Origin: Candidatus Nitrosopumilus sp. SW
GTDB taxonomy: Archaea; Thermoproteota; Nitrososphaeria; Nitrososphaerales; Nitrosopumilaceae
Length of the DNA: 64,000 nucleotides
Assembly: GCF_006740685.1 (NCBI RefSeq)
Contig: NZ_CP035425.1
Location: 659,687-723,686 of the forward strand
Direction: 5' to 3'
Under the pieces are notes generated by a model. The model made no database searches. It worked only from the letters and a program-made list of their open reading frames with translations, and had not been told where the DNA came from. Each line of letters begins with the position of its first letter. The stretch's first letter is position 1. This document shows positions 8,985-54,587 of the stretch, piece after piece. The translations under genes were made by a program, and so were the position numbers.

Positions 8985-9000
8985 AGTATTTTTACCTCCG
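8976..9000 (-). promoter_or_regulatory. Shine-Dalgarno with TTGA start/stop overlap for rmlC
   Basis: Reading leftward, GGAGGT (8993-8998 region) precedes TTG at 8984. The last bases of the upstream stop codon share TTGA with the start. This decides the rmlC start and shows that leadered, coupled translation exists beside leaderless starts. Confidence 0.6.
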
Positions 9001-10210
9001 GTATAGGAACCACAAATCTTCCTCCCCATTCTTTGATAAAATCCATTTGTTTGACAACCTCTTCTTGTAAATTCCAAGGCAAAATTATTACATAGTCAGG
9101 TTTAGTTTTTTGAATTTCATCAGGAGATTTTATTAAAATATGTGTACCTGGTAGGTATAATCCTTGTTTGTAGGGACTACGATCAACTACATAATCAATA
9201 TAATCTAATCCTATTTTACAATAATTTAACATAGTATTACCTTTTGCAGCAGCACCATAACAAACAATTTTTTTGTTTCTATTCTTTACAGAAGATACAA
9301 AATCTAATAATTGTTTTTTTATTTTTTCAATTTTTTTTTGAAAATTTGTATAGGTAGAAATTTTTGTGATGCCAAATTCTATTTCTTTGTCCAAAAGTTT
9401 TTTTACATTATTATTGATAATATGGTTTGAATTTTCAATATGGGTGGCATAAATTCTTAAGGACCCACCATGTGTATTTAATTCATCAACATCAAATATT
9501 TTCAAATTGTGTTTCTCAAAAATTTTGACTGCAGTATAAAGTGAAATATATGAAAAGTGTTCATGATAAATGGTATCAAATTGGTTTTTATCTATTAATT
9601 GCATTAAGTGTGGAAATTCCATAGTAATAATTCCATTTGGTTTAAGTAAGATTTTCATTCCTTCAACAAAATTATTAATATTTGGAACATGAGCTAAAAC
9701 ATTATTCCCAAGTAAAAGATCAGCTTTTTGATTTTTGGCAGATAATTCTTTTGCAACATCTATATCAAAGAATTTTACCATAGTTTGAATACCTTTTTGT
9801 TTTGCTATATTTGCAATATTTTCTGCAGGTTCTATTCCCATACAAGGAATATTTTTATTTTTAAAATTTTGAAGTAAATAGCCATCATTACTTGCAATTT
9901 CTATAACAAAACTATTCTCATCAAGTTCAAATCTATCTGTAATTTGCTCAACATATTCTAGTGCATGTTTCATCCAAGTTTCTGAATAAGATGAGAAATA
10001 TGCATAATCACTAAAAATTTTATCTGGACTGTTAAATTCCTCTAATTGTACTAAAAAACAATTTTTGCATACATATGCATGTAAAGGAAATATTGGTTCT
10101 TTCTCAGTTAATCTAGATTTCTTTAAAAAAGAATTTGAGAGTGGGGATGTACCAAGATCTGCAAAGGTTACTTCCAAATATTCATTACAAAATCTACATT
10201 TTTTTTCCAT
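8981..10210 (-). CDS. NDP-sugar C-methyltransferase (NovU/TylC3-like)
   Basis: A 409-residue three-part methyltransferase. The N-terminal zinc-binding domain shows CRFC at 5-8 and CKNC near 48. The central SAM-binding domain shows VIEIASNDGYLL and LLGNNVLAHVPN. The C-terminal domain shows IVCYGAAAKGNTMLNY and ends ILPWNLQEE. This is the architecture of sugar C-methyltransferases such as TylC3 and NovU. In this operon it would add a methyl branch, most likely at C3, to CDP-4-keto-6-deoxyglucose. A paralogue with the same architecture lies at 17314. It starts 5 bases after the rfbG stop; its own stop overlaps the rmlC start. Confidence 0.88.
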   Translation of the reverse strand: MEKKCRFCNEYLEVTFADLGTSPLSNSFLKKSRLTEKEPIFPLHAYVCKNCFLVQLEEFNSPDKIFSDYAYFSSYSETWMKHALEYVEQITDRFELDENSFVIEIASNDGYLLQNFKNKNIPCMGIEPAENIANIAKQKGIQTMVKFFDIDVAKELSAKNQKADLLLGNNVLAHVPNINNFVEGMKILLKPNGIITMEFPHLMQLIDKNQFDTIYHEHFSYISLYTAVKIFEKHNLKIFDVDELNTHGGSLRIYATHIENSNHIINNNVKKLLDKEIEFGITKISTYTNFQKKIEKIKKQLLDFVSSVKNRNKKIVCYGAAAKGNTMLNYCKIGLDYIDYVVDRSPYKQGLYLPGTHILIKSPDEIQKTKPDYVIILPWNLQEEVVKQMDFIKEWGGRFVVPIPEVKIL

Positions 10211-18582: not shown

Positions 18583-19650
18583 TCATTTCATATCATCTTC
18601 CAACAAATATTCTCCAATCTGGATTTTTCTAGGGGATTTTTTCCCAATTATGTCGAAAAAATATTGTGCAGATAAGCCTTTTTCAGGTCCTTTTACCTCA
18701 ATATTTTCTTCTGAAAAAATTTCCCCCTCATCAATATCAGACATACAGACAATACTCTTAGATACCACCTCTCTCTGAAGAACTTCTGCTCGAGTCATTT
18801 TTTTTATTGGTTTACCTTTAGCTTTTTCAGATAACCTAATCATAGTTACTAATTCTTTGAATTCATTTGGTTCTAATGAAGATGAATGATCTAATCCTTT
18901 CATTTTTTTATCAAGTGTGATATGTCTTTCTATAACTACAGCACCAATATTTGCAGCAGTTAGACTACCTATAATTCCTATTTCGTGATCACTGAAGCCT
19001 ATTGGAACATTGAATTTTTTTGCATATTCTGGAATTAAACTTACATTCAAAGATTCTATAGGAGATGGATATGTACTATTTGCATGAAGCAAAATAAATG
19101 GAATTTCTAGTTTTTTGACAAAATTAACCATTTTTTCAATTTCTTCTATTTTGGACATACCTGTAGATATGATCATGGGTTTTCGTGTTTTTGAAATATA
19201 TTTGATAAGAGGAAAATTAGTCATGTCACCAGATGCAATTTTGTATGCGGGTGTGTTAATTTGTTCTAAAAAATCTACGCTAGGAATATCCCAGGGAGTA
19301 CACAAAAATGTAATTTTTTTTTCTTTACAATAATTTACAATATCAAAATAATCTTCTTTGCTTAATTCCACTTCTTTAAGTTCAGCAAGTAAAATTTCAA
19401 ATCCCTGACTTTCAATATTTGGATTTTCTAATGCTTCTTTTCTATACAAACTTTGAAGATTTCTTTTTTGAAATTTTACTGCATTCGCTCCTGCATCAAC
19501 TGCCACATCAATTAACTTTTTTGCAAGAGTTAAATCACCATTATGATTCACACCTATTTCTGCAATAATATAACATGGATAATCAGCACCAATTATTTTA
19601 TTTTCAATATTAATTTCACTTTGATGACTCAATTTTCTCCCTATGATCAC
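18583..19650 (-). CDS. NeuB-family nonulosonic acid synthase
   Basis: About 355 residues. It condenses phosphoenolpyruvate with a six-carbon sugar to form a nine-carbon acid such as sialic, legionaminic or a related acid. Seen: YIIAEIGVNHNGDLTLAKKLI, AVKFQKR, IISTGMS, HANSTYPSP and GFSDHEIG, all typical of the NeuB TIM barrel. The C-terminal SAF (antifreeze-like) domain runs from about 290 to 355. The GTG at 19650 is used as the outer limit. TTG at 19632, preceded by AGGGAG, is at least as likely. It lies 22 bases after the aminotransferase gene. The exact sugar is not predictable. Confidence 0.88.
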   Translation of the reverse strand: MIIGRKLSHQSEINIENKIIGADYPCYIIAEIGVNHNGDLTLAKKLIDVAVDAGANAVKFQKRNLQSLYRKEALENPNIESQGFEILLAELKEVELSKEDYFDIVNYCKEKKITFLCTPWDIPSVDFLEQINTPAYKIASGDMTNFPLIKYISKTRKPMIISTGMSKIEEIEKMVNFVKKLEIPFILLHANSTYPSPIESLNVSLIPEYAKKFNVPIGFSDHEIGIIGSLTAANIGAVVIERHITLDKKMKGLDHSSSLEPNEFKELVTMIRLSEKAKGKPIKKMTRAEVLQREVVSKSIVCMSDIDEGEIFSEENIEVKGPEKGLSAQYFFDIIGKKSPRKIQIGEYLLEDDMK

Positions 19651-19672
19651 TTAATTTTTAAGAATTTTTTGT

Positions 19673-21007
19673 TTAATTATGTTTTTTGATTGAAGGTAGT
19701 TTCATTGACCAAATTGTTTTAGGCAAAGAACCATCCATATGTTTTTGATAGTCATCATTTTCAATTTTTGTGTTAATTATGTCACATACATTTTCAAAGG
19801 ATTGAAGTGTTTTTTCAACATCTTGTTCTGAATGAGAATAACAAATGTATGATGCACCTAAAATAGACATGAAAACATTTTGTTTAACCATTTCTTGTAA
19901 AATAAAAGACTTCATAGATAAAGATTCACTACCAGAATTATTAAAACATCTAAGATCCATACGTATTGGATAACCTGTCATTTTTGCATTAATATTATTT
20001 TTTTCAGAAATTTTATTCCAACCATCAAACAAAATTTTTCCAATTTTCCAGCAATGTTGAATGGTGTTTTTTTCTTTCATTTCATTGATCACTGCTTTTG
20101 TTCCAGCCATAGACAATGTTTCACTATTATTTGTAGAAGAAACCCACAAGTCATCAAAAGTTTTCATAAATTCAGACGTACCTGTGACTGCAGAAAGAGG
20201 CAATCCATTTGACATTCCTTTTCCAAAGCATACTAAATCACCTTTAATTCCAAAGTATTTCTGTGCACCAGCCAAATCAAATCTAAAACCAGTAACTATT
20301 TCATCTAAAATTAATAATGAATCATTTTGATCTGCTAGTTTTCTTACTTTTTGCAAAAAATTATTTTTAGGTTCTTCAAATTGTGTAGGTTCTAACACTA
20401 TTGCTGCAATTTTATTTGGATTATCATCAAATATCTGTTCTAATCCATCTGAATCATTATAATCAAAAATTTTGATCAAGTCTTCATTAAATTTAGGAAC
20501 ACCTCCATCTCTGCTAACCATTGCAGCTTGCCAATCATGCCAGACGCCGCCAGTTCCACAATATGCAATCATATCTTTTTGTGTAAATGCTCTTGCAGCT
20601 CTAACTGCTGCAGTAACAGCATTAGAACCTGATTTTTCAAATTTTACCATGTCAGCAAATGGAATAGTCTTACAAACTAATTCTGATAATTCAACCTCAA
20701 TTGTATGAGGTAATGAAAATAAAATTCCTTTATCTAATTGATCTTTTATTGCTTGGTTTACAATACCATAGTTATAACCCAAGGTAATTGGTCCTAAAGC
20801 CATCAAATAGTCCAGATATTCATTTCCATCAACATCTGTAAAGTGAGAACCATTTCCAGATTGTATGTATAGGGGATAAACATTCTCTATGAATGAAGTT
20901 GCAGCTCGACTAAATGTACCGGTTAAATGCGGAATCACTTTTTCAGCACGTTTCTTGTATTGAGCAGAAATATTCAGATTTATTTTTTCATCAGTCAAAA
21001 AAGACAC
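19673..21007 (-). CDS. class III aminotransferase (GSA aminomutase-like)
   Basis: A 444-residue PLP enzyme of the glutamate-1-semialdehyde aminomutase-like group. Seen: EKSGSNAVTAAVRAARAFT, LLILDEIVTGFR (PLP-contact Asp) and CFGKGMSNGLPLSAV with the Schiff-base Lys. True heme HemL is normally elsewhere in the genome. Placement between a B12-radical SAM gene and NeuB suggests it aminates a sugar or sugar-acid aldehyde/ketone for the surface glycan. A GTG at 21007 starts the frame. TTG at 20998 has an AAGGTG Shine-Dalgarno 6 bases upstream and may be the true start. Confidence 0.82.
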   Translation of the reverse strand: MSFLTDEKINLNISAQYKKRAEKVIPHLTGTFSRAATSFIENVYPLYIQSGNGSHFTDVDGNEYLDYLMALGPITLGYNYGIVNQAIKDQLDKGILFSLPHTIEVELSELVCKTIPFADMVKFEKSGSNAVTAAVRAARAFTQKDMIAYCGTGGVWHDWQAAMVSRDGGVPKFNEDLIKIFDYNDSDGLEQIFDDNPNKIAAIVLEPTQFEEPKNNFLQKVRKLADQNDSLLILDEIVTGFRFDLAGAQKYFGIKGDLVCFGKGMSNGLPLSAVTGTSEFMKTFDDLWVSSTNNSETLSMAGTKAVINEMKEKNTIQHCWKIGKILFDGWNKISEKNNINAKMTGYPIRMDLRCFNNSGSESLSMKSFILQEMVKQNVFMSILGASYICYSHSEQDVEKTLQSFENVCDIINTKIENDDYQKHMDGSLPKTIWSMKLPSIKKHN

Positions 21008-30729: not shown

Positions 30730-32112
30730 ATGAAACCCAATATTTTGTTTTTTGTTATTGATTCATTTAGAGCAGACAAATGCTTTGGATCACGAAAAAA
30801 TTCTAAGATACCAAACATTGAACATCTAATAAAGAATGGAGTTTATTTTAAAAATGCAATTTCTTCCTCAAATAGTAGTAGTCCAGCATGGCTAAGTTGG
30901 TTTACTGGCTTATATCCATTTAATACTAAAAAAAACGAAACTTATCAAAAAATTTCTGAATCAACTCATAGTTACATAAAGGATTTAAAAAAATCAGGAT
31001 ATCATGTTTATTCTACCATGCCAAAACCAGCTGAATATTTAGGATTTACAAAAGATTTTGAAAATGATGATTCATCATTTCCCATACATTCAAGATTACA
31101 TAATGGTCTTGGAGATTTGATTTTTGGAAAAATTCATAAAAAAGAAATACAAGAACCATGGTTTTATTTTGTTCATATTTTAGATTTACATTCACCCATA
31201 AATCCACCAAAAGAATTTGATGATGATAAATTTGGAAGAGATTCGTATGAACGTACAATTTCATCAATTGATTCATGGATTGGAAAAATTATCAAACATA
31301 TTGATTTGGAAAAAACTCTAGTGATTGTTACAGCTGATCATGGAAATTTCATTCCAATAAATGCTAATGTGAATAATTTAGAAATTAATAGAAATGAAAT
31401 GGATGTTAAACTATGGCAATTAGAAGACAAAATTCCTAAATCATTAAGAAGTGTAACTAGAAATTTTGCGAGATTTATTGAAAAAAGAAGACAGATAAAA
31501 CGTCAATCAAAAATAAAAAATTTAGATATGAAACCATTTGAAAAAAGAAACTTGTTGTATTCAGATTTATTTACAATGTTTAATCCCAATTCAGAACACA
31601 ATTTTCTATTTGATGATATTGTAAAAGTTCCACTGATAATGGCAGGATATGGGATCAAAGATCATAAACAAGTAGATGTACAAATTAGAAATAGTTTAGA
31701 TATTTTTCCTACTATTTTTGAACTAATAGGAATAAAACTAAATGAAAAAGTAGATGGAAATAGCCTTATTCCAATTATAGATGGAACAGAAGTAAAAGAA
31801 AATCCAGTATATATCGAGGGACATACAAATGCAAAAGATAATTCAAAAAATGTGATTGGTGTAAGGACTTCTAGATACAAATATTTTAGAATAAGAGATG
31901 AAACGTTGGAAGATGCATATTTGTATGATTTAGAGTCAGATCCATTAGAAGAAACAAATGTAATTAACACTAGTAGAAATATTGCAGAAAAAATGGAAGA
32001 AGTTTTAGTACAAATACAAAAAAATTCAAGTGACATTATAGAATTTGAAGAAATTAGTGATCAAGAAGCTAAGGATGTTGAAGACGAGTTAAAGAAGCTA
32101 GGATATCTTTAA
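30730..32112 (+). CDS. alkaline phosphatase superfamily (sulfatase-like) enzyme A
   Basis: 460 residues with the sulfatase/alkaline phosphatase fold. Metal-site motifs are FFVIDSFRAD at the N-terminus and VTADHG near 200. The place for the nucleophile reads NSSSPAWLSWFTG: a Ser, without the C/S-x-P-x-R needed to make formylglycine. So it is not a canonical sulfatase and more likely a phosphatase, phosphodiesterase or phosphotransferase. No signal peptide is visible, suggesting a cytoplasmic role. The C-terminal part shows YDLESDPLEETN, usual in the family. It heads the run of phosphoramidate-cassette genes; a TATA-like element lies at about 30699-30709. Confidence 0.82.
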   Translation: MKPNILFFVIDSFRADKCFGSRKNSKIPNIEHLIKNGVYFKNAISSSNSSSPAWLSWFTGLYPFNTKKNETYQKISESTHSYIKDLKKSGYHVYSTMPKPAEYLGFTKDFENDDSSFPIHSRLHNGLGDLIFGKIHKKEIQEPWFYFVHILDLHSPINPPKEFDDDKFGRDSYERTISSIDSWIGKIIKHIDLEKTLVIVTADHGNFIPINANVNNLEINRNEMDVKLWQLEDKIPKSLRSVTRNFARFIEKRRQIKRQSKIKNLDMKPFEKRNLLYSDLFTMFNPNSEHNFLFDDIVKVPLIMAGYGIKDHKQVDVQIRNSLDIFPTIFELIGIKLNEKVDGNSLIPIIDGTEVKENPVYIEGHTNAKDNSKNVIGVRTSRYKYFRIRDETLEDAYLYDLESDPLEETNVINTSRNIAEKMEEVLVQIQKNSSDIIEFEEISDQEAKDVEDELKKLGYL

Positions 32113-32202
32113 GAAAATTTGAAATAACAAAAATCAGTTATCATAGTTGATTAATACTAATTCATACAATGAAATAAAAGGTTCCATACTCTAGATAATT
32201 TA

Positions 32203-32850
32203 TTGGTTAAAAAAAGTGTAAGAGTTGGAATTTCATTAAGAGTTGTTGATGCACCAAATTACAATGAAAAGAGAGATGCACTAAGTCAGGACTGGATTTT
32301 TTTTCTTGAAAAATTAGGTGTAATTCCTGTTTTTATTCCAAATAACATGTCGGATGTAAAGGATTTTCTTAAGGAAATGAATATTGATGGATTAATTCTC
32401 TCCGGTGGAGATAATATCGGGGATCATCCAGAGCGTGACAAAACAGAAAGAAATGTTATTGAGTTTGCCATAGAATCAAAAACGCCTCTCTTGGGAATAT
32501 GTAGAGGAATGCAAGTCATAAACAAATTTTTTGATGGAAATGTTGTCAAAAATAAAAATTCTAAACACGTTGGTAATGTTCATCAAATAAAAATTTTAAA
32601 TCTAATTTCAAAATTGTTTGATGGTGAAAAAATTCTGGTGAATTCTTTTCATAATAATATAATTCCAAAAGATATGCTTGGTAGTGAACTTAATTCGTTT
32701 GCAATCTCTACAGAGGATAACACAGTAGAAGGTTTCTTTCATAAAAAATTACCATTTAGTGGAATTATGTGGCATCCCGAAAGAGATCAGAATGAAAATA
32801 ATTTGTTAATAGTAAAACAACTTCTAAAACTTCAATCAAACAAATCATGA
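32203..32850 (+). CDS. class I glutamine amidotransferase-like hydrolase (Cj1417-like)
   Basis: 215 residues, the gamma-glutamyl-GABA hydrolase/peptidase C26 group, with TTG start. Catalytic triad: Cys in LLGICRGMQVI and His-Glu in IMWHPERD. In Campylobacter jejuni the homologue Cj1417 cleaves gamma-glutamyl-CDP-amidate to Glu plus cytidine diphosphoramidate. The next gene, overlapping by 4 bases, is a Cj1416-like cytidylyltransferase, and a Cj1418-like glutamine kinase is at 36049. That company makes the same role likely here, rather than polyamine or GABA metabolism. The function is inferred from family and context, not proven. Confidence 0.85.
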   Translation: MVKKSVRVGISLRVVDAPNYNEKRDALSQDWIFFLEKLGVIPVFIPNNMSDVKDFLKEMNIDGLILSGGDNIGDHPERDKTERNVIEFAIESKTPLLGICRGMQVINKFFDGNVVKNKNSKHVGNVHQIKILNLISKLFDGEKILVNSFHNNIIPKDMLGSELNSFAISTEDNTVEGFFHKKLPFSGIMWHPERDQNENNLLIVKQLLKLQSNKS

Positions 32851-33641
32851 AATCTATTATTCTAGCGGCAGGAGAGGGGAAAAGACTTAGACCGTTAACT
32901 GAAAATATTCCAAAATGCTTAGTGAAACTTTTTGGTAAAAGTTTGTTAGAACAGCAAATTGATACTTTTAAGAAATGTAATATTTTTGATATATCTGTAG
33001 TTACGGGTTACAAAGCTGATTCAATAAAAATTCCTGGCTTGAAAATTTACAAAAATAGTGATTATTCATCTACAAATATGGTAGAGACTTTATTTTGTGC
33101 AAAAAATGAGATGGTGAGTGAAGTAATTGTATCATATGGAGATATAATTTTTGAGTCTAGAGTATTGGAAAAGTTGATCGATTCTGAAGATGATGTTTCT
33201 ATAATAATTGATAAAGAATGGGAAAAATATTGGAAAATTAGATTTGATGATCCTCTCGAAGATGTAGAAACATTACTACTTGACAAAAATAACTATATTC
33301 TAGACTTGGGGCAAAAACCAAAATCACTTGATGAAATTCAAGGTCAATATATAGGGTTGATGAAGTTCCAAGGCAAAGGACTTGAATTTATGCTAAAGTA
33401 CTATGATGATGTAAAAGGAGAATTTGAGAATACAGGAAAAAATTGTCTTAATCCTAATTTAGAATTTAGAAAATCTTACATGACAGATTTTTTGCGTGGG
33501 ATGATTTCTGAAGGATGTAAAATAAAAGGAATTCCAATCAATAATGGTTGGCTTGAAGTTGATTCAGTTAAAGATTTTCAAACGTACTCAAGAATGTATG
33601 ATGACAAAACATTAAACCCGTTTTTTTCTATAAATTCTTGA
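32847..33641 (+). CDS. LicC-like cytidylyltransferase, probable CTP:phosphoglutamine type (Cj1416-like)
   Basis: 264 residues, a sugar-nucleotidyltransferase-like fold. Seen: SIILAAGEGKRLRPLTENIPKCLVKLFGKSLL (signature), KNSDYSSTNMVETL as in LicC and PntC, VSYGDIIF for metal, and NNGWLEVDSVKDF near the end. It transfers CMP from CTP to a phosphorylated small molecule. With the glutamine kinase and Cj1417-like genes near, phosphoglutamine is the best guess; phosphocholine or an aminoalkylphosphonate are alternatives. Its ATG is inside the ATGA overlap with the preceding gene. Confidence 0.85.
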   Translation: MKSIILAAGEGKRLRPLTENIPKCLVKLFGKSLLEQQIDTFKKCNIFDISVVTGYKADSIKIPGLKIYKNSDYSSTNMVETLFCAKNEMVSEVIVSYGDIIFESRVLEKLIDSEDDVSIIIDKEWEKYWKIRFDDPLEDVETLLLDKNNYILDLGQKPKSLDEIQGQYIGLMKFQGKGLEFMLKYYDDVKGEFENTGKNCLNPNLEFRKSYMTDFLRGMISEGCKIKGIPINNGWLEVDSVKDFQTYSRMYDDKTLNPFFSINS

Positions 33642-33642
33642 T

Positions 33643-34755
33643 TTGAAGCCAAACATTATCTTTGTACTTTTGGATGGTTCCAGATGGGATCGCTTTCATA
33701 TTAGTCCCGAATTAACGGAACTACAAAAAAGAGGGACTTTACTAAATAATGTAATTACAGCAATTCCTTATACGTTTGGTTCTATGAATGTAATATTCAC
33801 AGGACTATATGGAAAAGAAAATGGTGTTGATGCTTATTACAAAATGTTTAAGCTTAAAGATTCTGTTGACTTTTTACCCGAATTACTAAAAAAAAATGGA
33901 TACTATACATGCTGTGATGTTATTACCGATAAAGTAATTTCAAAACGTGGATTTGATGTTCATCAAGCACATGATGAATACAATGACGATCTTACAAAGA
34001 AACATCCGGATCTCATTCGAGAAGCATTTAATTCTTCCAAGGGAAAACCTGTTTTTTGCTTTTTACAATTTAGTCGTATACATACTATTACAGTATCAGA
34101 AATTCTCAAAAAATACAAGTGGGATAACAAAGAATTCTACGAAAAAAAATCTGAAAACATAAAAACATATGATAATGTTTTTACTGAAGCAGGAATATAT
34201 GCAAAAAAAATCTATGAAACAGTAGATGATTTGGGTAAACTAAATGAAACAATTTTGATATTTTTTGCTGATCATGGAACTGGTGTCGGGGAACGATTTG
34301 GAGAGAGAAATTATGGTGTTTTTACATATGAAGAAACAATAAGAACACCTTACTTGTTTATTGGTCCTCATATTCCCAAAAACCGAATTTCTGAAGGTCT
34401 TGTAAGTACCATTAACATTTTTCCCACATTGTTAGAATTAGCTAGTATTAATTATAATTCCACTAATATTGGAAAAAGTTTTGCATCCTATCTCCTTGGA
34501 AAAAATGATTTGGAAGAAGATGAATTTGCTTTTTCTGAAACTGGAGGACTTCAAGGTCCATTTCCTTCCCCAAAAGAACCAAATGTATTTTGTGTAAAAA
34601 CAAAAAGAAACAAGTTAATTTTCTTTAAAGCAACTAACGAATGGAAACTTTTTGATCTACAAAATGATCCTTTAGAACAAAATGATGTTTTTGAAAAAGA
34701 AATTCAAACTTCTCAAAAATTAAAGAATACTCTATTAAAATGGATTCAAAGATAG
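33643..34755 (+). CDS. alkaline phosphatase superfamily (sulfatase-like) enzyme B
   Basis: 370 residues; TTG start just 1 base after the cytidylyltransferase stop. Metal motifs are IIFVLLDGSRWD and FFADHG. The nucleophile region reads AIPYTFGSMNVIFTG, so Thr sits where FGly-sulfatases have Cys/Ser, as in phosphotransferases of this superfamily. It is shorter than enzyme A and not closely alike except at motifs. In operon with two CDP-amidate genes, it may transfer or hydrolyse the phosphoramidate group. That is a proposal only. The C-terminus carries FDLQNDPLEQND, as in sulfatases. Confidence 0.82.
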   Translation: MKPNIIFVLLDGSRWDRFHISPELTELQKRGTLLNNVITAIPYTFGSMNVIFTGLYGKENGVDAYYKMFKLKDSVDFLPELLKKNGYYTCCDVITDKVISKRGFDVHQAHDEYNDDLTKKHPDLIREAFNSSKGKPVFCFLQFSRIHTITVSEILKKYKWDNKEFYEKKSENIKTYDNVFTEAGIYAKKIYETVDDLGKLNETILIFFADHGTGVGERFGERNYGVFTYEETIRTPYLFIGPHIPKNRISEGLVSTINIFPTLLELASINYNSTNIGKSFASYLLGKNDLEEDEFAFSETGGLQGPFPSPKEPNVFCVKTKRNKLIFFKATNEWKLFDLQNDPLEQNDVFEKEIQTSQKLKNTLLKWIQR

Positions 34756-34774
34756 AAATTTTTCAAGTTTTGAA

Positions 34775-35464
34775 TTAATTTTTAATACATCTTAAAATTG
34801 CAATATGCTTTAAAACAGGGTGAATGATGTGAAACGTTTCACCATCATCAGGATTTTGTTTTCTAATTTCACCTTTTTGAATCAAATTATTTTGTAAGAC
34901 TTTAACAAGTGTTTCAGATCTTATGTGCGCATCATATACTTCATCAATAAATGGATAGTCGGGTTTTGAAAATTTTTTTTGGAAAATTATGTTTCCAGTA
35001 TCTATATTTTTATCCATAAAATATGCTGTAACTCCTGCAGAGTCTTCATTGATTATGCTATAGTAAAAACACGTACTACCCCTATAATTTGGCACAATTC
35101 CAGGATGCAGATGAACAAACTTTGGACCCGATTTTAGAATGTCTTCCCTTAAAATGCCCCCTCCTGTAAAAATAAAAACATCCGTATTTGATTTTGACAA
35201 GTATTCTACAAGAAGAGGATGGTTGATATCAACAAAATTAAATTCATAAAAATTTAGATTATGCTTTTTCAATGTGGATTTTACTGATTTGGAGATATCA
35301 AATCCTAATTCTTTTGATTTGGTAACAATTTCACTAGAAAAGTGAGGTTCAATTCTATCATCATTCATAAATAAAATTTCATCAATAAAAATTTGATTTT
35401 TTAAAATTTTTTGTAGATATGCCTTTGATCTTTCATCAGGAGTCAAAATAATTCCTAACTTCAT
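34775..35464 (-). CDS. formyltransferase-family protein
   Basis: 229 residues, related to methionyl-tRNA and sugar N-formyltransferases. Seen: HLHPGIVPNYRGSTCFYYSI and GVTAYFMDKNIDTGNII, with the Asp of the fold. The Asn two residues before the active-site His in the usual N-x-H-P-G is replaced by His (HLHPG), so folate-dependent formylation must be tested. It lacks the tRNA-binding C-terminal domain of Fmt, so it is not the initiator formylase. It overlaps the next gene's start by 4 bases and ends 20 bases from enzyme B. Confidence 0.8.
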   Translation of the reverse strand: MKLGIILTPDERSKAYLQKILKNQIFIDEILFMNDDRIEPHFSSEIVTKSKELGFDISKSVKSTLKKHNLNFYEFNFVDINHPLLVEYLSKSNTDVFIFTGGGILREDILKSGPKFVHLHPGIVPNYRGSTCFYYSIINEDSAGVTAYFMDKNIDTGNIIFQKKFSKPDYPFIDEVYDAHIRSETLVKVLQNNLIQKGEIRKQNPDDGETFHIIHPVLKHIAILRCIKN

Positions 35465-36039
35465 ATGTTTATTCCTCTCCCTTTACAAAGTTTATCAATG
35501 TATTCTATTTCTTTTGTAATAAGATAACAAAAGAGATTTTGATCTTCCTCTAGAATTTTTGATACTTGTGAACATAAAATGTCATTAATTTTCAAAAAAG
35601 TATTAAGATATTTTAATGAATAATTTTTTTCATAATGATCTATGCAGAGCAATCCGAATAACATATAATTTTTTAAATTTTGAAAATTTTCTGATAATTC
35701 TTTAAATTCTGAATTATACTCAGTGTACAACTTCTTTTTAATTTCAAATTTCTTTAATAATCTATCAAACTGAATTTTTTGATCATCTTTATTTGATTGG
35801 GATAAGAGAACAGACAGAAAGTCAAACAGTTTAAATTTTTTAGGATTTGGCCATTCTAAATTTTTAAAATCTATAAAAAAATCATTAAGCTTAAAATCCT
35901 CAAAATTTTCTTTTTCTAACAAATCCAATCTACTTTTTTTGTAAACCTTGAGAAATTCTATTCCTTCAAAAGGGGTTTTTTGATATTTTTGTGGTTTACT
36001 CAAAAGATCATTTTTTGAGTAAACATATTCTGTAATCAT
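35461..36039 (-). CDS. unknown protein of the phosphoramidate cassette
   Basis: 192 residues, not recognised. It is rich in Lys, Glu, Leu and Phe, predicted largely helical, without signal peptide, membrane segment or Cys pair motif (three single Cys near the C-terminal half). It lies between the glutamine-kinase-like gene (9 bases upstream) and the formyltransferase gene (4-base overlap), so it is certainly co-expressed with them. It could be an accessory transferase subunit or acceptor-binding protein, but nothing in the sequence shows this. Confidence 0.7.
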   Translation of the reverse strand: MITEYVYSKNDLLSKPQKYQKTPFEGIEFLKVYKKSRLDLLEKENFEDFKLNDFFIDFKNLEWPNPKKFKLFDFLSVLLSQSNKDDQKIQFDRLLKKFEIKKKLYTEYNSEFKELSENFQNLKNYMLFGLLCIDHYEKNYSLKYLNTFLKINDILCSQVSKILEEDQNLFCYLITKEIEYIDKLCKGRGINI

Positions 36040-36048
36040 ATTTCTAGA

Positions 36049-38481
36049 CTATTTGATATATCCTAATGATTTTAGAACTTTTTTTTCTTCTAAAAATTCG
36101 TTATTATTCTTGGTTTTTATAATGATAATCTGTTTTTGATCACAATCAAGTATTATTTTGCTACTTTCAAGAAGGGTCTCATACAAAATTTCTCCACATC
36201 CTATAGCTGCAGGAATTCCTAATTCTGCACACCTAATTGCCATATGGGATGCAACACCACCATATTTTGTTATCAGACCTGTAATGTCATTCATAAATAT
36301 CCAATCAAAACCTGGATCTGCATTTTCAATTACAACAATTTTTTTTGAGACATCATAAGATGAAATTTTTTTATCTAAAACAATAATGTTTGAGGTAATC
36401 TTTTTTCTTGTAATAAAATTTGGCTTTGAAGCAAAATAAGAAAACATTTCAAAATTCTCATCAGAATTAATAATTGGCGGAAGTTGTATAAAATCTGTTA
36501 TAGTTTTGTTATTTTTTTGAATAAGTATTTTCTCTTTCCATTTTTTTTCTAATTCACGCTTTGTTAATTTTTTATAAGACAGTATTGATTCAAAATTTAA
36601 ATTAGAAATATCTTCTCTTGAGAATCCTAAAATTTGTCCAGATTTTGCAATTAATTCTAATGCATCACTTAGATTACGTGTGAATTCAAATTTGATGTGT
36701 TCTCTCATTGAGATAGAAGATTTTGCAAAAGAAAAAAATTCTGAAGGGTTGAACTTTAATCCATGTTTTGAAAATGTTTTTGACAATTTAGGTTCAATAA
36801 ATTTTTTATTTGAATTTGGATATTTTATGAAGTGAAAATTTGAAATTAATTCAGGATTCTCATCATATCTTGGTGCAGTAATATCATATGTTCCTGATCT
36901 CAAATGACCATATTTTTCCATAAGTTGCTTTAATGAGATTTTTTCTCGAGAGTAAAGCGAAAAATCTTTTCGTAAATTTGTTAATGGTGATTGGATCGAC
37001 TCCAAGAAAATTTCATATTCTGAAGATGAAATTGATCCATTTTTTACCAGACTTTTTAACAAGATGGATGCAATAAAGGCGGTTCTGGCAATAGATGAAA
37101 AATGCGCGGTGCCATATAATCTACAATCTCTCAATAGTCTAACTGCTGCATCCAACAGTTTACCATAATCCTTAGAATTGTTTACCGTTTTGAGAATTTC
37201 TGTTCTATTTTGAATCATTGTAGAATAATCTAGTTCTGCTTTTTTCTTTATTTTTGAAAAATTGATTATAATATCATTTGTAAAATCTATCAATTTATTT
37301 TTTATTTGTTCAATCTCTTTTTGTTCAAATTTAGAATTTTTTAATTCTGATAATCTCTTTGAAAGTGAAAAATCATAACAAGTAAACAAAATTTCGAATT
37401 CAACTTTATCATGTAGTTCTGGATGAAGTTGTAATTTTGATATGTAAAAATTCATCAATTTCTTTCTGAGCTTTTTTGGGATATTATCTGGAATTAGTGA
37501 ATTGAAACTTGCTTGTATATCGACATAGGGTTTGTTTCCAAATTTTTTCATAAGTGGGCATGGATTGACATCTTGATATCCCAATAGTTTTCGTCCCTGA
37601 TGCCATGATTTTTTCATTATAAGATAATCATAAAGAGAATAATCTAATAGATTTGGATTAGGTCCAATAATTTCTGAAGGATTCCAATCTGCCATGTCTG
37701 AAAAAATCATCTTTTTTCCAGCAATATTTTTTGAAAATTTCATAGTTGAAAACTGTTTTTTACATTTTAAAATGGCTTTTCCAACCAATCTTTCAATATT
37801 AGGAATGGAAGTTTTTTCAATAAATGTAATTGGTCTAACTTGAAAAATTATTATTTTATCATTTTTATCAATTCCAAATTCGATATCAAGTTGTGAAGAT
37901 TTGGTAATTGTTTCAATTTCTTTTATTGCAGTTAGTAAATTTTTCCAAGTTTTGGGTAATGAATTTAAGGGTTTTTTTCTGAAAATTGCTATACTTTTTG
38001 TATGTTTACCTGAAGTTACAGATGTTGTTGAAGAACCTAAATCATAATTTATCAAATAATATGGGGAGCCTTTATTACCTGTTTTTGTAAAAATGACTCC
38101 ACTTAATTTAATATTTGTTGTTTGCTTTTGTGCAAAAATTTGATTTGTTTCTTTAGAATTGTTTTTTTCCAGATATGAACGAATTACTGAGTTTATTGCA
38201 TTTTTAACATTATTTTTATCAGTTGGAAAAACATCTAATATGCTGAGAAAACTTCCTGCTTCAGATTTTTCAAAAGAATCTTCTCCTTCAGCAGAACTTC
38301 TAATAATTATTTTTTTGTTTTTAAATTTTGTAGAAATATAATCAAGTAGTTTATTTTGATTATTAGTCCAATCTGAAATTGTAAAATCAACAAATGGTTC
38401 AATTCTAGATTTAGATAATTTGTTTTGTAGAAATTTTAAGGTGTTAACTTTGGTTGTAAAAAGTGGAGATGTTTTGTTCAT
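36049..38481 (-). CDS. PEP-synthase-like kinase, probable L-glutamine kinase (Cj1418-like)
   Basis: 810 residues in three parts, like Cj1418. The N-terminal ATP-grasp part has KVNTLKFLQNKL, then IIIRSSAEGEDSFEKSEAGSF and FQVRPITF near 220. The middle part has the group's DMADWNPSEIIGPNP and a PYVDIQASFNSLIP segment. The C-terminal phospho-His domain has TKYGGVASHMAIRCAELGIPAAIGCG, with the swinging His. Glutamine kinase phosphorylates the amide N of L-Gln with ATP, forming a P-N bond via phospho-His. It lacks the PEP-binding TIM barrel of true PEP synthase and PPDK. An AAGGAA lies just before its ATG. It is the first gene of the leftward arm of the cassette. Confidence 0.85.
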   Translation of the reverse strand: MNKTSPLFTTKVNTLKFLQNKLSKSRIEPFVDFTISDWTNNQNKLLDYISTKFKNKKIIIRSSAEGEDSFEKSEAGSFLSILDVFPTDKNNVKNAINSVIRSYLEKNNSKETNQIFAQKQTTNIKLSGVIFTKTGNKGSPYYLINYDLGSSTTSVTSGKHTKSIAIFRKKPLNSLPKTWKNLLTAIKEIETITKSSQLDIEFGIDKNDKIIIFQVRPITFIEKTSIPNIERLVGKAILKCKKQFSTMKFSKNIAGKKMIFSDMADWNPSEIIGPNPNLLDYSLYDYLIMKKSWHQGRKLLGYQDVNPCPLMKKFGNKPYVDIQASFNSLIPDNIPKKLRKKLMNFYISKLQLHPELHDKVEFEILFTCYDFSLSKRLSELKNSKFEQKEIEQIKNKLIDFTNDIIINFSKIKKKAELDYSTMIQNRTEILKTVNNSKDYGKLLDAAVRLLRDCRLYGTAHFSSIARTAFIASILLKSLVKNGSISSSEYEIFLESIQSPLTNLRKDFSLYSREKISLKQLMEKYGHLRSGTYDITAPRYDENPELISNFHFIKYPNSNKKFIEPKLSKTFSKHGLKFNPSEFFSFAKSSISMREHIKFEFTRNLSDALELIAKSGQILGFSREDISNLNFESILSYKKLTKRELEKKWKEKILIQKNNKTITDFIQLPPIINSDENFEMFSYFASKPNFITRKKITSNIIVLDKKISSYDVSKKIVVIENADPGFDWIFMNDITGLITKYGGVASHMAIRCAELGIPAAIGCGEILYETLLESSKIILDCDQKQIIIIKTKNNNEFLEEKKVLKSLGYIK

Positions 38482-38668: not shown

Positions 38669-39826
38669 TTAATTATTTTCATAATTGCCTTGAATTCTAT
38701 TAATTGACAGGAAAAATCCTGCTTGGATAGTTTCTGCGATAACTAGAGCAGCAGCAATACCATAGACGCTAAAAAGATCTCCTAAAAGGAAAATCAATGG
38801 TATTTGAGTAGCAAGATAAAGGATTATACCTATAATTACAAATTTGCTTTTTTCAATTCCTAAAAATTTTGAAATAAACATTGAACTAATAGATCTAGGA
38901 ATTATGGCAATACTAATTATCTGAATTATTATTACAGCCTCAACATATTGTGGGAAGAAATATGGTACAATTATTGGAGAAAGAATAATTCCAATGACTC
39001 CAAATATTACACTAATTAATACAGTAATTTTTTTTAATTGTGGTTTAAAGGATCCACTAGCGTCTTGAGGCAATGTATATTGAAGAACGATACTTGGAAG
39101 TATTGATAACAACATCAAAAATTGAAGTCCTAATTGATAATTTCCTAATATTGCAAATCCCAACATAGGTGCAATAATTAATTTATCAATATTTCCTGCA
39201 AGTGATTTTGTTATATCTACACCATAACTATTCATCATAAATCCAATTCTAGGTTTTATTACTGAAAAGTCAACTTTGTTTTGCTGTATTTTTTGAATTA
39301 AAATAAAAAGAAATGGGAAAAAGGATAATGCTAATCCTAGAATAATTCCAAATGTATCCATTACAAAATAAATCGGTATTGCAAACGATACAAGAAGGAA
39401 TTTTTGTAAAATTGCAATTTTAGAATATTTTTGATATTTTTTTTCACCAAGCAATTCTGCCTGAACGATATTAAAAATTACATAGCCTATAACATAAAGA
39501 CTTACTGCAATATTTTCTAGAATTAAATAAATAACAACTGCACTAACTAAACTGATTGTAATGGAAAGAACAGATAATACAGGAACTATGTTTACTTTCT
39601 TGGCAGTATAAACGGTGGTTGTATAACCAGAACCAATTGAAGAGAAAACTCCAGCAATAATTCCAATTGCTAGTAAATAACTCACTTCTCCGTATTTTTC
39701 TTCACCTAATAATGAAGCAACATAAAACCAAAAAATTGCTGAAATGCCACTTCCTATTACATTTGCTGCACCTAAGGATGAAAGATCTTTTAGTCCTGAA
39801 AAATTTTTAATTTTATCAAATACCAT
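38669..39826 (-). CDS. Wzx-like polysaccharide flippase
   Basis: 385 residues, almost all hydrophobic, with about 11-12 membrane helices. The N-terminus SSLGAANVIGSGISAIFWFYVASLLGEEKYGEVSYLLA is typical of the MOP/Wzx exporter family (it is split here only for reference). It would flip lipid-linked oligosaccharides across the membrane. It is short for the family (usually 410-480), mainly at the C-terminus, but the frame is intact. As the only flippase in the island it probably serves all the glycans assembled here. Confidence 0.85.
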   Translation of the reverse strand: MVFDKIKNFSGLKDLSSLGAANVIGSGISAIFWFYVASLLGEEKYGEVSYLLAIGIIAGVFSSIGSGYTTTVYTAKKVNIVPVLSVLSITISLVSAVVIYLILENIAVSLYVIGYVIFNIVQAELLGEKKYQKYSKIAILQKFLLVSFAIPIYFVMDTFGIILGLALSFFPFLFILIQKIQQNKVDFSVIKPRIGFMMNSYGVDITKSLAGNIDKLIIAPMLGFAILGNYQLGLQFLMLLSILPSIVLQYTLPQDASGSFKPQLKKITVLISVIFGVIGIILSPIIVPYFFPQYVEAVIIIQIISIAIIPRSISSMFISKFLGIEKSKFVIIGIILYLATQIPLIFLLGDLFSVYGIAAALVIAETIQAGFFLSINRIQGNYENN

Positions 39827-52081: not shown

Positions 52082-52389
52082 GTTGTAGAGTCTATTAACC
52101 AATCAAGATAGGGTTTGTTAATTGAAGTCACATCTATTTCAGCAATTTCTGGAACATCATATGGATGAGTTTCCTTAATTTTTTCTTTAAGTAATTTCTT
52201 ATTTTTTGATGTTGTTTTAAAGATGGCAATGTATTCAGAGGTATTTTCTATTTTTTTATTCCAAGAATAGATTGAAGATATTTTAGAAATATTTACACAT
52301 GCAACTGTCTTATTTTTTACAAACATTTTTGCAATTTTTGTAATTGATTTTTTATCAGGATAAGTTGAGATGATTACTGTTGGTTTCAT
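52078..52389 (-). CDS. cutA: CutA1 divalent-cation tolerance-like protein
   Basis: 103 residues, the usual CutA1 length. Seen: VIISTYPDKKSITKIAKMFVKNKTVACVNI (given as one strand-helix-strand), SIYSWNKKIENTSEY and ETHPYDVPEIAEIDV, all hallmarks. It forms trimers; copper-tolerance function is uncertain and often a signalling role is proposed. The start overlaps the reverse-strand S2P frame by about 20 bases, which suggests that the protease begins further in. Confidence 0.93.
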   Translation of the reverse strand: MKPTVIISTYPDKKSITKIAKMFVKNKTVACVNISKISSIYSWNKKIENTSEYIAIFKTTSKNKKLLKEKIKETHPYDVPEIAEIDVTSINKPYLDWLIDSTT

Positions 52390-53629
52390 AGTAACCGATA
52401 AATGTCCGTACCTTAAAAAAATTACAATTAATTTGGAACTTGATTTTATTACTCAAAATTCGATTATCTATGTATTAATGGCATGGGTAATTATCGTCAT
52501 TGTTGCCAAGGGATTAAAGTTAGAAAAACATGGTTTTGAAATAAAGGCATATAGTCTAACTTACAAAAATAAACAAGTCAATTCAGTATTGTTAAAACTT
52601 CTTAGTCGGACAAGAAGAGGAATTAGAGTTTTTGCAGATGTAAGTGTAATTTCAGGTTTCATTATGATGGGTTTTGCATTTTGGTTTTTGCTAAATAATG
52701 TTGCAAATTTTTTTGTTGCACAAACAGAATTTTCAGAATTAACTGTTCTTATTCCAGGAGTTACATTAACTTCAGCAGCATCAATTACATACTTTTTACT
52801 ATCAATTCCAGTTGTACTAGTAATACATGAAGGAGCACATGGTATTGTTGCAGCATTAGAAAAAATTAAGATCAAAACAGGAGGCTTTGCAATATTTATT
52901 GCAATGTTTGCAGGTTTTGTTGAACCTGATGAAGAAGAATTTAACAAAGCAAAAAAGATTTCAAAACTTAGAGTTATTGGAGCAGGGGCAACATCAAATG
53001 TAATTTTTGCATTTGTTTTAGGAGCAATTTTACTTACAAATCCATTTTTTGCAATGGTTTTACCTGAACCACTCTTGAGTGTATTTTATGAATTACCGGA
53101 AGGAGTTCTAATTCTCTCAATCATTGAAAATTCAGGAGCAGAACAAGCAGGACTACTTGCAAATGACATCATTACGTCAATCAATGATAAACCGATTCTG
53201 AGTCCGGTTGATTTCCCCAGTTTGAATCCAGGAGATACAGCAAGTGTTTCCATACTTAGAGAAGGTCAACCATTAGAATTTAGTCTTGAAGTAATGCCAG
53301 CACCAGACGATCCAGAAAGAGGATTAATTGGAATTATGAGAGACAATTCATTTGCATACAAACCAGTAATGAATTTCATTGAATGGAACGACCCAAATGT
53401 TTCAATGTTCCTTCTATGGCTTTGGATGATATCATTTTTCATCGGAATAATCAACATGCTACCACTACCTATCTTAGATGGTGGAAAATTCATTCATACA
53501 ATTATTGATAAAAGAATTTCAGAAAAAGCAGTTAATGGTGTAATGTGGGGAATCTATGCATTCACTTTTGCATTATTTGGTCTGAATATTGCCCTGTCAT
53601 ATGTAAAATCTGGTTGGTTCACAATATAG
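52370..53629 (+). CDS. site-2 protease family M50 with PDZ domain
   Basis: Up to 419 residues. Membrane helices occur near 34-48, 92-115 and later. The zinc site is VIHEGAHGIVAAL (HExxH) with the distal NMLPLPILDGGKFIH Asp. A PDZ-like part (SIIENSGAEQAGLL ... NDIITSINDKP) lies at about 240-330. It cuts transmembrane substrates inside the membrane. The start is uncertain: ATG-like frame at 52370 overlaps cutA, TTG 52433 or ATG 52475 would clear it. Confidence 0.88.
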   Translation: MITVGFIVTDKCPYLKKITINLELDFITQNSIIYVLMAWVIIVIVAKGLKLEKHGFEIKAYSLTYKNKQVNSVLLKLLSRTRRGIRVFADVSVISGFIMMGFAFWFLLNNVANFFVAQTEFSELTVLIPGVTLTSAASITYFLLSIPVVLVIHEGAHGIVAALEKIKIKTGGFAIFIAMFAGFVEPDEEEFNKAKKISKLRVIGAGATSNVIFAFVLGAILLTNPFFAMVLPEPLLSVFYELPEGVLILSIIENSGAEQAGLLANDIITSINDKPILSPVDFPSLNPGDTASVSILREGQPLEFSLEVMPAPDDPERGLIGIMRDNSFAYKPVMNFIEWNDPNVSMFLLWLWMISFFIGIINMLPLPILDGGKFIHTIIDKRISEKAVNGVMWGIYAFTFALFGLNIALSYVKSGWFTI

Positions 53630-53672
53630 AAAATACCTAAAGAATCATTAATGAAAAAAATTATCCAAACTC

Positions 53673-54587
53673 ATGAAATGTGATGGATGTGAAAATTCAG
53701 CAGTTTATACTAGAAAATATTCTGGGCAAAAACTCTGTTCAGAATGTTTCTCAAATTCCATTGTAAGAAAGACTGCAAAAACCATTTCCAAACACAAAAT
53801 GATCAAAAATAATGAATTAGTAGCTGTTGCCGTGTCTGGAGGAAAAGATTCTCTTGCACTATTGAAAATAATTCACGAAATGTCATCGACTCATAATTTT
53901 AGAATTAAAGCAATTACTATTGATGAAGGCATTCCAGGATATAGAAATGAAGCATTAGAAATTGTTGAAAAATTTTGTGGAGAGTTAGGTGTTGAACACA
54001 AAGTTTACTCTTACAAAGATCTCTTTGAATTAACACTTGATGAAGCATTGGATTTGAGAGAAAATGAAAAAACATCATCATGTTCAATTTGCGGAACTTT
54101 AAGAAGAAGAGCAATCGATCATGCTGCAAAAAATATTGGTGCAGATGTTATTGCAACGGGACACAATCTAGATGACACATTACAAACATTTGTCATAAAC
54201 ATGCTTTCAGGAGATACTAATAAAATTGGATGGATGGATCCTGATACATCTTCAAATTCGTTAAGAAAAATCAAACCATTTTGCGAGATATATGAATCTG
54301 AGATAGTGTTTTATGCATTTACAAATGATATTCCATTCCAATCAGAACCTTGTCCTCACATGAATGAAGGAATAAGAACAGAGATTCGTGAATTTCTAAA
54401 TTCGTTAGAAAAACAACACAGTGGAATTAAAAATAATTTGTATCAATCAATTCTCAGAGTATCAAGTATAGTAAAAGAAACAAACTACAAAGAAAAAACG
54501 ATTTGTGAGAAATGTGGTAGTGACTGTACAGGAAATGTATGCTCAGTTTGCAACATGGTGTTGAAGTTAAAAGAGAATCAAACCTAA
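53673..54587 (+). CDS. tRNA 2-thiolation PP-loop ATPase (Ncs6/TtuA family)
   Basis: 304 residues. N-terminal zinc finger CDGC ... CSEC, PP-loop AVAVSGGKDSLALL near 50-63, Cys pairs SCSICGTLRRR and TGHNLDD, and a C-terminal zinc finger CEKCGSDC...CSVC. It adds sulfur to U34 (or U54) of tRNA via adenylation. The two zinc ribbons match the archaeal TIGR00269-like group. It precedes SRP RNA in the same direction. Confidence 0.92.
   Translation: MKCDGCENSAVYTRKYSGQKLCSECFSNSIVRKTAKTISKHKMIKNNELVAVAVSGGKDSLALLKIIHEMSSTHNFRIKAITIDEGIPGYRNEALEIVEKFCGELGVEHKVYSYKDLFELTLDEALDLRENEKTSSCSICGTLRRRAIDHAAKNIGADVIATGHNLDDTLQTFVINMLSGDTNKIGWMDPDTSSNSLRKIKPFCEIYESEIVFYAFTNDIPFQSEPCPHMNEGIRTEIREFLNSLEKQHSGIKNNLYQSILRVSSIVKETNYKEKTICEKCGSDCTGNVCSVCNMVLKLKENQT

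Follow-up and report, generated by a model that had tools for sequence, protein, structure and literature searches.

A locus of Candidatus Nitrosopumilus sp. SW, contained in the 64,000-nucleotide stretch of DNA analysed here (the window), is likely to be a phosphoramidate cassette serving to decorate a glycan of the cell surface, as judged from sequence comparisons. Production of a rare group with a P-N bond is very probably directed by the genes of this archaeon, and the group is probably attached to surface sugars by enzymes of a kind that its relatives appear to use on phosphonates. We conclude that the locus would encode a patchily distributed and swappable phosphoramidate pathway of the MpnABC type whose transfer module is a different one. 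The cassette extends further than described in an earlier note on this DNA: two genes of the alkaline-phosphatase (AP) superfamily, a formyltransferase-like gene and a gene for a 192-aa protein also appear to belong to it. The genes are as follows.

30730..32112, + strand: second soluble enzyme of the AP superfamily (ap2), proposed as a partner or an alternative transferase (Sulfatase family; co-occurs with such gene sets, here called kits, and with phosphonate cassettes).
32203..32850, + strand: predicted gamma-glutamyl-CDP-amidate hydrolase (MpnB/Cj1417-type), 215 aa (best family NF045546).
32847..33641, + strand: predicted CTP:phosphoglutamine cytidylyltransferase (MpnC/Cj1416-type; NTase), 264 aa (LicC-like family, synteny, kinase fusions).
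33643..34755, + strand: soluble enzyme of the AP superfamily ("sulfatase-like"), proposed to transfer phosphoramidate from CDP-amidate (kit position, active site, fold, homologues in PepM cassettes).
34775..35464, - strand: putative formyltransferase-like accessory tailoring enzyme with HxH replacing NxH (PF00551; 4-base overlap with the 192-aa gene).
35461..36039, - strand: 192-aa helical protein, accessory (9-base gap to the kinase gene; recurs in kits).
36049..38481, - strand: predicted L-glutamine kinase (MpnA/Cj1418-type), 810 aa (PRK05849 score, conserved motifs, tree).
38669..39826, - strand: membrane protein resembling polysaccharide flippases, which probably exports the decorated glycan (weak Polysacc_synt match).

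The kinase, hydrolase and NTase genes described in the earlier note are all intact, and the 4-base overlap claimed for the latter two is present at 32847-32850. The kinase has the proposed architecture, in which a PPDK_N domain of the ATP-grasp type is combined with the DWNPSEIIG stretch and an intact catalytic phospho-His domain of the PEP-utilisers type (GGVASHMAIR), and a domain search found no PEP-utilizers_C barrel in it. It scores 851.7 bits against NF004508/PRK05849 (cutoff 501), a family to which Cj1418 itself presumably belongs, compared with 48.7 bits for PEP synthase and 23.8 bits for RPH. Family scores ruled out identification as a PEP synthase, RPH or prodigiosin ligase; thus, both alternatives named in the earlier note as a check on the kinase, PEP synthase and rifampin phosphotransferase, are rejected. 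Alignment with nine kit kinases showed that the GG-x-x-SH-x-x-IR motif and the M-x-D-x-NP-x-E-x-I stretch are kept, and the kinase tree places the window protein in a clade of ammonia-oxidising archaea.

The hydrolase is a class-I GATase in which C100, H191 and E193 do not vary across a 49-row alignment. Its best family is NF045546, gamma-glutamyl-CDP-amidate hydrolase, at 124.7 bits, which is half the equivalog cutoff of 250 and exceeds the next family (57 bits) by 67 bits; GMP-synthase models score far below. The same model matches every one of the 49 kit hydrolases scanned. The NTase is LicC-like, with LicC itself (1jyk) as its nearest PDB relative; in a scan of family models it fitted no specific family, and none of the models separates it from LicC-like enzymes. 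Its predicted role as a CTP:phosphoglutamine cytidylyltransferase is consequently assigned from synteny and from kinase fusions, 25 of 89 kit kinases carrying a fused NTase-like domain.

Relatives of the kinase are encoded in more than 560 genome stretches from bacteria and archaea. Among the 66 loci that were assessable, having enough flank around the kinase gene, the kinase, hydrolase and NTase genes share one strand in 60, drawn from many phyla of both domains, and lie on opposite strands in none; such clustering exceeds chance. The usual order is mpnA-mpnB-mpnC, found directly in the Nitrosopumilus kits G012, G013, G034 and G079. In all four other carriers of the genus, the kinase-hydrolase-NTase series is followed by a homologue of the 33643-34755 enzyme, so that the four-gene set is present in 5/5 Nitrosopumilus carriers and contiguous in four; this homologue also follows the NTase in a Woesearchaeota locus (L046). 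Family scores, the uniform hydrolase match and the mpnABC order make the core proposed in the earlier note, in which a kinase, a cytidylyltransferase and a hydrolase supply CDP-amidate to a surface glycan, the best-supported reading.

In the window, the three genes lie within 7 kb, with the kinase gene inverted relative to the other two. Being on the opposite strand, it stands outside any single operon with them, which counts against the best explanation.

The earlier note also held that a Cj1415-like CDP-amidate kinase is missing from the window, and this is the case; such a kinase is no part of the gene set. Elsewhere in the genome, the sole strong match was canonical apsK, a gene present in most of the genus (49/57 genomes searched), and this candidate was rejected. 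Searches with families taken from other kits detected neither the methyltransferase mtA nor sulfotransferase-like proteins in the window, and the methyltransferase mtB gave only 23.8 bits, to 8981-10210. Thus, the Cj1415-like kinase and the sulfotransferase-like and methyltransferase genes of kits are all absent from the window; in other kits, the latter two accompany the former, in a comparison that ignores kinship of loci.

The AP-superfamily enzymes are the proposed transfer module. The 33643-34755 protein has an AP/sulfatase fold, and residues D11, T44, D210 and H211 are invariant in the kit alignment and are conserved in phosphonate-cassette homologues as well. It shows the LtaS/EptA-like hallmarks (an acidic residue, a Thr nucleophile and an Asp-His metal site), and it is not placed in these subfamilies because their membrane anchor is absent. 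Identification of the two enzymes as sulfatases was rejected on nucleophile-motif evidence: the formylglycine motif of PF00884 sulfatases (CxPxR or C/S-x-P-x-R) was found in neither, and the nucleophile position reads PYTFGSM, with Thr, in 33643-34755 and SSPAW in 30730-32112. A hydrophobicity check revealed no hydrophobic signal or anchor in either enzyme, nor any strongly hydrophobic stretch in 30730-32112, and both are predicted to be cytosolic. The notion that AP genes are kit-specific was also rejected, as a search of relatives found them in kit-less genomes; it was this result that led to recognition of the parallel with phosphonate cassettes, which the earlier note had not drawn. Among 150 relatives, all 16 full-length AP genes sit either with a kit (5) or with a PepM cassette (11). 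Homologues of ap2 occur in kits G012, L035 and L037, and most of the phosphonate cassettes examined have ap2 close to the gene for the first AP enzyme. Since its relatives in kit-less Nitrosopumilus lie in PepM phosphonate cassettes, the 33643-34755 enzyme is probably a transferase that moves CMP-activated phosphorus groups onto sugars.

The two enzymes could, however, be hydrolases, and their gene neighbourhoods could be explained by a common glycan acceptor rather than a common donor type. Under this rather unlikely alternative, the core would still make CDP-amidate, the AP enzymes would hydrolyse or remodel the glycan as sulfatases or phosphodiesterases, and another gene of the island would encode the transferase. 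Their closest solved structures are indeed sulfatases, and other kits contain alternative candidate transferases of the CDP-glycerol type (10 loci, without the 3'-kinase), the CDP-alcohol type and the sulfotransferase-like type. No member of these families was found in the window, however, and the AP enzymes lack the sulfatase motif and any hydrophobic signal or anchor, keep the Thr nucleophile, are encoded beside the NTase in archaeal kits and, in relatives, always accompany cassettes that CMP-activate phosphorus groups. These observations argue for transfer.

In the proposed phosphoramidate pathway, the glutamine kinase (36049-38481) would form phosphoglutamine, which the cytidylyltransferase would couple to CTP, yielding gamma-glutamyl-CDP-amidate, and the hydrolase would cleave off glutamate to give CDP-amidate. 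We infer these three steps from family membership and from conserved synteny with biochemically characterised enzymes. One or both AP enzymes (33643-34755 and 30730-32112) would then accept the P(O)(NH2)O- group on a Thr or Ser nucleophile, with release of CMP, and hand it on to a hydroxyl of the sugar. This fourth step, suggested by synteny, active-site residues and cassette swapping, would stand in for the CDP-amidate 3'-kinase, methylation and dedicated transferase of C. jejuni, and it parallels phosphonate cassettes, in which we propose that the same family moves the CMP-activated phosphonate. Finally, as a guess, the formyltransferase-like protein and the 192-aa protein may tailor the group or the sugar before the glycan is flipped outward. 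Their genes (34775-35464 and 35461-36039) are found together again in other kits, with the 192-aa gene directly before its partner; the 192-aa protein is fused to a formyltransferase in L047, L078 and L107 and to an APS-kinase-like domain in L093, and among 150 relatives it occurs in genome G000 only. Its structural model (pLDDT 86) found no PDB match at E<=0.001 (best E 0.01). HxH is shared by the formyltransferase-like protein and 20 cassette homologues, and two ordinary formyltransferases have NxH. The flippase-like protein passes the cutoff for PF13440 only, and in G012 and G034 a homologue is encoded close to the kit.

The O-methyl phosphoramidate pathway of C. jejuni reportedly comprises MpnA-D, that is, Cj1418-Cj1415 (Taylor, Raushel and colleagues, 2017-2018). 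Compared by family models, sizes and order, the window shares with it the predicted kinase, hydrolase and LicC-like NTase, the same gene order, similar protein sizes (mpnA, mpnB and mpnC encode 779, 200 and 253 aa; PMC7901785) and a surface-glycan setting. The MeOPN group of C. jejuni gives a 31P NMR signal near 14 ppm (PMC7901785). Unlike that system, it lacks MpnD (the CDP-amidate 3'-kinase) and a kit-type methyltransferase, has AP-superfamily enzymes in place of MpnD and the dedicated MeOPN transferases, adds the formyltransferase-like/192-aa pair and belongs to an archaeal host. The tie to the C. jejuni enzymes thus runs through family models, sizes and gene order; kinases of distant kits are only ~30% identical, and the hydrolase falls under its equivalog cutoff. 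It is therefore conceivable, though quite unlikely, that the kinase acts on an amide or amine other than free glutamine and that the trio makes another CMP-activated P-N compound; the retained Cys-His-Glu class-I amidotransferase triad, which suits a gamma-glutamyl bond, and the fit of the gamma-glutamyl-CDP-amidate hydrolase model to all kit hydrolases speak against this. That the trio is merely a set of unrelated glycan-island neighbours (a dikinase resembling PEP synthase, a nucleotidyltransferase for sugar-1-phosphate or phosphocholine, and a generic glutaminase), as generic Pfam names, the LicC match and the inverted kinase gene might suggest, is highly improbable and already largely refuted by its same-strand conservation across phyla and domains, with PEP synthase, RPH and GMP-synthase models scoring far lower and the PEP-binding domain absent from the kinase.

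The methylphosphonate cassette of N. maritimus is said to contain PepM, Ppd, MpnS, NTase and sulfatase-like genes (Metcalf, 2012). Its AP enzymes and NTase are ~35% and ~31% identical to those of the window, respectively, and the two cassette types share an insertion site in relatives, kit and phosphonate cassette occupying the same genomic site in G013 and G053. Phosphorus esters on exopolysaccharide are reported there: the N. maritimus polymer bears methylphosphonate esters, and arylsulfatase-like genes occur in phosphonate neighbourhoods (PMC3840354, PMC9381506). The supply differs, with a glutamine kinase and hydrolase providing P-N here and PepM, Ppd and MpnS providing C-P there. PntC and LicC, which activate phosphonates and phosphocholine by nucleotidyl transfer (PMC6697681), likewise serve the tailoring of surfaces by CMP-activating a small phosphorus group; however, their substrates are AEP or phosphocholine, and their systems have no glutamine kinase or hydrolase. 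By its published description, a gene cluster for O-methyl phosphoramidate found by structure prediction in the Cobalt Borg (PMC12660748, 2025) is also a predicted phosphoramidate cluster on an archaeal genetic element, though an extrachromosomal one of methane-oxidising archaea, and archaeal clusters of this kind are thus not wholly unreported.

A 2022 review calls glutamine kinase C. jejuni-specific (PMC9561416). With even chances of being right, it can be proposed that marine ammonia-oxidising archaea have an interchangeable slot for phosphorus decoration, in which a module for CMP-activation and AP-superfamily transfer is fed either phosphonate (by PepM) or phosphoramidate (by glutamine kinase). 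To our knowledge, a P-N surface group has so far been proven only on Campylobacter capsules. If the slot exists, both P-N and C-P groups would be carried by the exopolysaccharide of N. maritimus-like cells, and the soluble AP enzymes would form a novel class of transferase that draws on CMP-linked donors to move phosphoramidate or phosphonate. N. maritimus SCM1 probably has the kit too, and a cultured strain probably carries both kit and phosphonate cassette, which makes the reading testable. The methylphosphonate polysaccharide of N. maritimus underlies the ocean methane paradox as its source material, and the AP enzymes would be candidates for the step that loads methylphosphonate onto it. 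More broadly, P-N bonds would be a widespread surface chemistry, extending to highly abundant archaea of the ocean about whose glycans very little is known; phosphoramidate would join phosphonates in marine dissolved organic phosphorus, and the P-N mark would be a likely phage receptor or evasion mark.

The window very probably encodes a CDP-amidate core, formed by the kinase, hydrolase and cytidylyltransferase (NTase) of the following cassette:

30730-32112, + strand, second alkaline-phosphatase-superfamily (AP) protein
32203-32850, + strand, hydrolase
32847-33641, + strand, NTase
33643-34755, + strand, AP enzyme
34775-35464, - strand, formyltransferase-like protein
35461-36039, - strand, 192-aa protein
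36049-38481, - strand, kinase

The three core genes lie where the earlier note had placed them and are all intact, and the 4-base overlap that it described between the hydrolase and NTase genes is real. The kinase consists of ATP-grasp and PEP-utilisers phospho-His domains without the PEP-binding barrel, and NCBIfam NF004508/PRK05849 matches it with 851.7 bits (cutoff, 501). Identity as a PEP synthase or rifamycin phosphotransferase can be dismissed, as these models score far lower (48.7 and 23.8 bits, respectively). The hydrolase is best matched by NF045546 (gamma-glutamyl-CDP-amidate hydrolase), whose 124.7 bits fall short of the equivalog cutoff of 250, with the runner-up family at 57; the NTase is LicC-like and matches no specific family model. 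The characterised enzymes of this pathway are established to make N-phosphoglutamine, gamma-glutamyl-CDP-amidate and CDP-amidate (Taylor, Raushel and colleagues, cited in PMC6429109).

Glutamine kinase was described in a 2022 review as specific to C. jejuni (PMC9561416). A scan of GTDB genomes yielded at least 566 stretches encoding a kinase relative, of which the best 80 were retained. In the 66 loci whose sequence extends 3.5 kb or more past the kinase on its downstream side, both the hydrolase and the NTase lie within 6 kb of it in 60, the hydrolase directly follows it in 49, and neither partner is found on the opposite strand in any. NF045546 is matched by all 49 kit hydrolases scanned. 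Gene order and sizes agree with those of C. jejuni mpnA-mpnB-mpnC (779, 200 and 253 aa) and, in several loci, mpnD (Cj1415; 170 aa; PMC7901785). In 25 of 89 kinases, the N-terminus carries a fused NTase-like domain; such fusions, which are bacterial and in some cases haloarchaeal (L025, L029, L059, L063, L065, L068, L079 and others), coexist with a separate NTase gene. Kinase relatives are also encoded on 14 bacterial plasmid records, and the kinase-hydrolase-cytidylyltransferase row was found in four of five plasmids inspected (Vibrio alfacsensis, Azospirillum lipoferum, Deltaproteobacteria Smac51 and Pseudohalocynthiibacter), with an APS-kinase-like gene and a methyltransferase added in Azospirillum and Smac51. 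In the fifth, from Cupriavidus taiwanensis (L028), the kinase has no annotated partners. Neither hydrolase nor NTase was found near the kinase relatives of L028, L103 and L096, which may have another job.

Among 150 relatives, window genome included, the kinase exceeds its cutoff in five, all of one genus. In the other four genomes, the operon comprises kinase, hydrolase, NTase and then a homologue of 33643-34755, and the kit of G012 also holds a homologue of 30730-32112; the window has the same genes, but its kinase is inverted. The 192-aa and formyltransferase-like genes share the kinase strand of the window, and the two are again found side by side in kits from Altiarchaeales, Woesearchaeota, Bacteroidota, Bacillota and Pseudomonadota. 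They form a single fusion protein in L047, L078 and L107, an APS-kinase-like domain is fused to the 192-aa domain in L093, and in Woesearchaeota L046 the same strand encodes the kinase, hydrolase and NTase together with the AP enzyme, the 192-aa protein and the formyltransferase. The 192-aa protein, absent from the 149 other relatives searched, is modelled as a confident helical domain, for which a good PDB match was not found. In the formyltransferases of the cassettes (window and 20 others), His replaces the catalytic Asn of NxH, giving HxH, whereas two ordinary formyltransferases keep NxH. These HxH proteins (34775-35464 and homologues) constitute a subfamily found in phosphoramidate kits.

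The earlier note had reported a Cj1415-like kinase to be missing, and indeed no kit-type APS kinase was found within the 64-kb window; nor was a kit methyltransferase (mtA) or sulfotransferase-like gene. The APS kinase encoded elsewhere in the genome is ruled out as a Cj1415-type enzyme because it is canonical and 49 of 57 genomes searched in the genus have one. As far as CDP-amidate, the locus resembles the Mpn pathway of C. jejuni; it is not a full member of that pathway, as MpnD and the methylation/transfer arm were sought and not found. A Cj1415-like (APS-kinase-like) gene occurs in 35 of 87 loci (e.g., L043, L056, L109). Counted over these loci with kinship ignored, sulfotransferase-like genes accompany it in 10/35 loci versus 0/52 without it, mtA methyltransferases in 15/35 versus 1/52, and CDP-glycerol-type transferases in 0/35 versus 10/52. 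These associations suggest two pathway arms, one proceeding through 3'-phospho-CDP-amidate and the other using CDP-amidate directly; Nitrosopumilus kits would belong to the latter. Since sulfotransferase-like proteins are found only beside the CDP-amidate-3'-kinase-like gene, it is suggested that they are 3'-phospho-CDP-amidate transferases.

Transfer of the group from CDP-amidate is probably the task of an AP-superfamily enzyme. The AP enzyme has a sulfatase/alkaline-phosphatase fold and a Thr nucleophile; D11, T44, D210 and H211 are invariant in the kit alignment, and the C/S-x-P-x-R motif is absent. The LtaS and EptA phosphotransferases have an arrangement of Thr, an acidic residue and Asp-His. 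Neither AP protein contains a strongly hydrophobic stretch (a possible signal peptide or membrane anchor), which fits a cytosolic nucleotide donor. Outside the five kits, full-length AP homologues occur in kit-less Nitrosopumilus, in G099 and as a second copy in G079, and PepM lies beside all 11 (ten inspected; G021 contig 97 judged from coordinates). This result is the strongest clue to the transfer step. The usual neighbours in PepM cassettes are a split phosphonopyruvate decarboxylase, Fe-ADH and an NTase 25-34% identical to that of the window; four cassettes also encode a cupin/HTH protein, which we take to be MpnS. In the AP tree, kit copies stand apart from phosphonate copies, with one distant genome, G099, as the sole exception. 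Arylsulfatase-like genes have been noted among phosphonate neighbourhoods (PMC9381506), and it is established that phosphonates are activated with CMP (PMC6697681).

The genome is a single contig of 1.5 Mb (window, G000:C1:659687-723686), and the cassette is surrounded by a glycan island with many glycosyltransferase and nucleotide-sugar genes (GC 0.28 vs 0.33 to its right). At 18583-21007, a NeuB-like synthase adjoins a PLP-dependent aminomutase/aminotransferase-like gene; as read from sequence, the pair suggests a possible nonulosonic-acid-type sugar in the island. The earlier note knew of no such decoration in ammonia-oxidising archaea (AOA), and the word phosphoramidate is absent among the AOA literature matches listed. 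An O-methyl phosphoramidate cluster was reported in a Borg in 2025 (PMC12660748). The N-glycan reported for AOA in 2025 belongs to Nitrososphaera, and Np. piranensis showed no apparent N-glycosylation (PMC12153357); hence, an exopolysaccharide may serve as the acceptor here instead of an N-glycan. An exopolysaccharide carrying methylphosphonate esters has been reported in N. maritimus (PMC3840354). G079, probably N. maritimus SCM1, has both a phosphonate cassette (C1:142688-149316, L124; PepM, Ppd, MpnS-like, NTase and two AP enzymes) and a phosphoramidate kit (C1:600159-605183).

The kit of G013 lies between homologues of 52370-53629 and 53673-54587, two conserved genes that are direct neighbours in the window; the flanks are 86-90% identical, versus 39-55% for the kit proteins. 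G053 has a phosphonate cassette at the same site. The junction (window 52370-54587, L033:5963-11066, L130:1950-11134) is thus empty in the window, occupied by the kit in G013 and by the phosphonate cassette in G053, and is a putative exchange hotspot for phosphorus decorations. In the kinase tree, AOA form a single supported clade beside DPANN archaea, with a possibly mis-binned Nitrospina MAG nested inside it. Given this tree, the site occupancy and the unequal identities of flanks and kit, the kit looks like an exchangeable surface locus. Both cassette types have an NTase and AP enzymes in common, consistent with one module for activation and transfer that is shared between them and whose supply is exchangeable.
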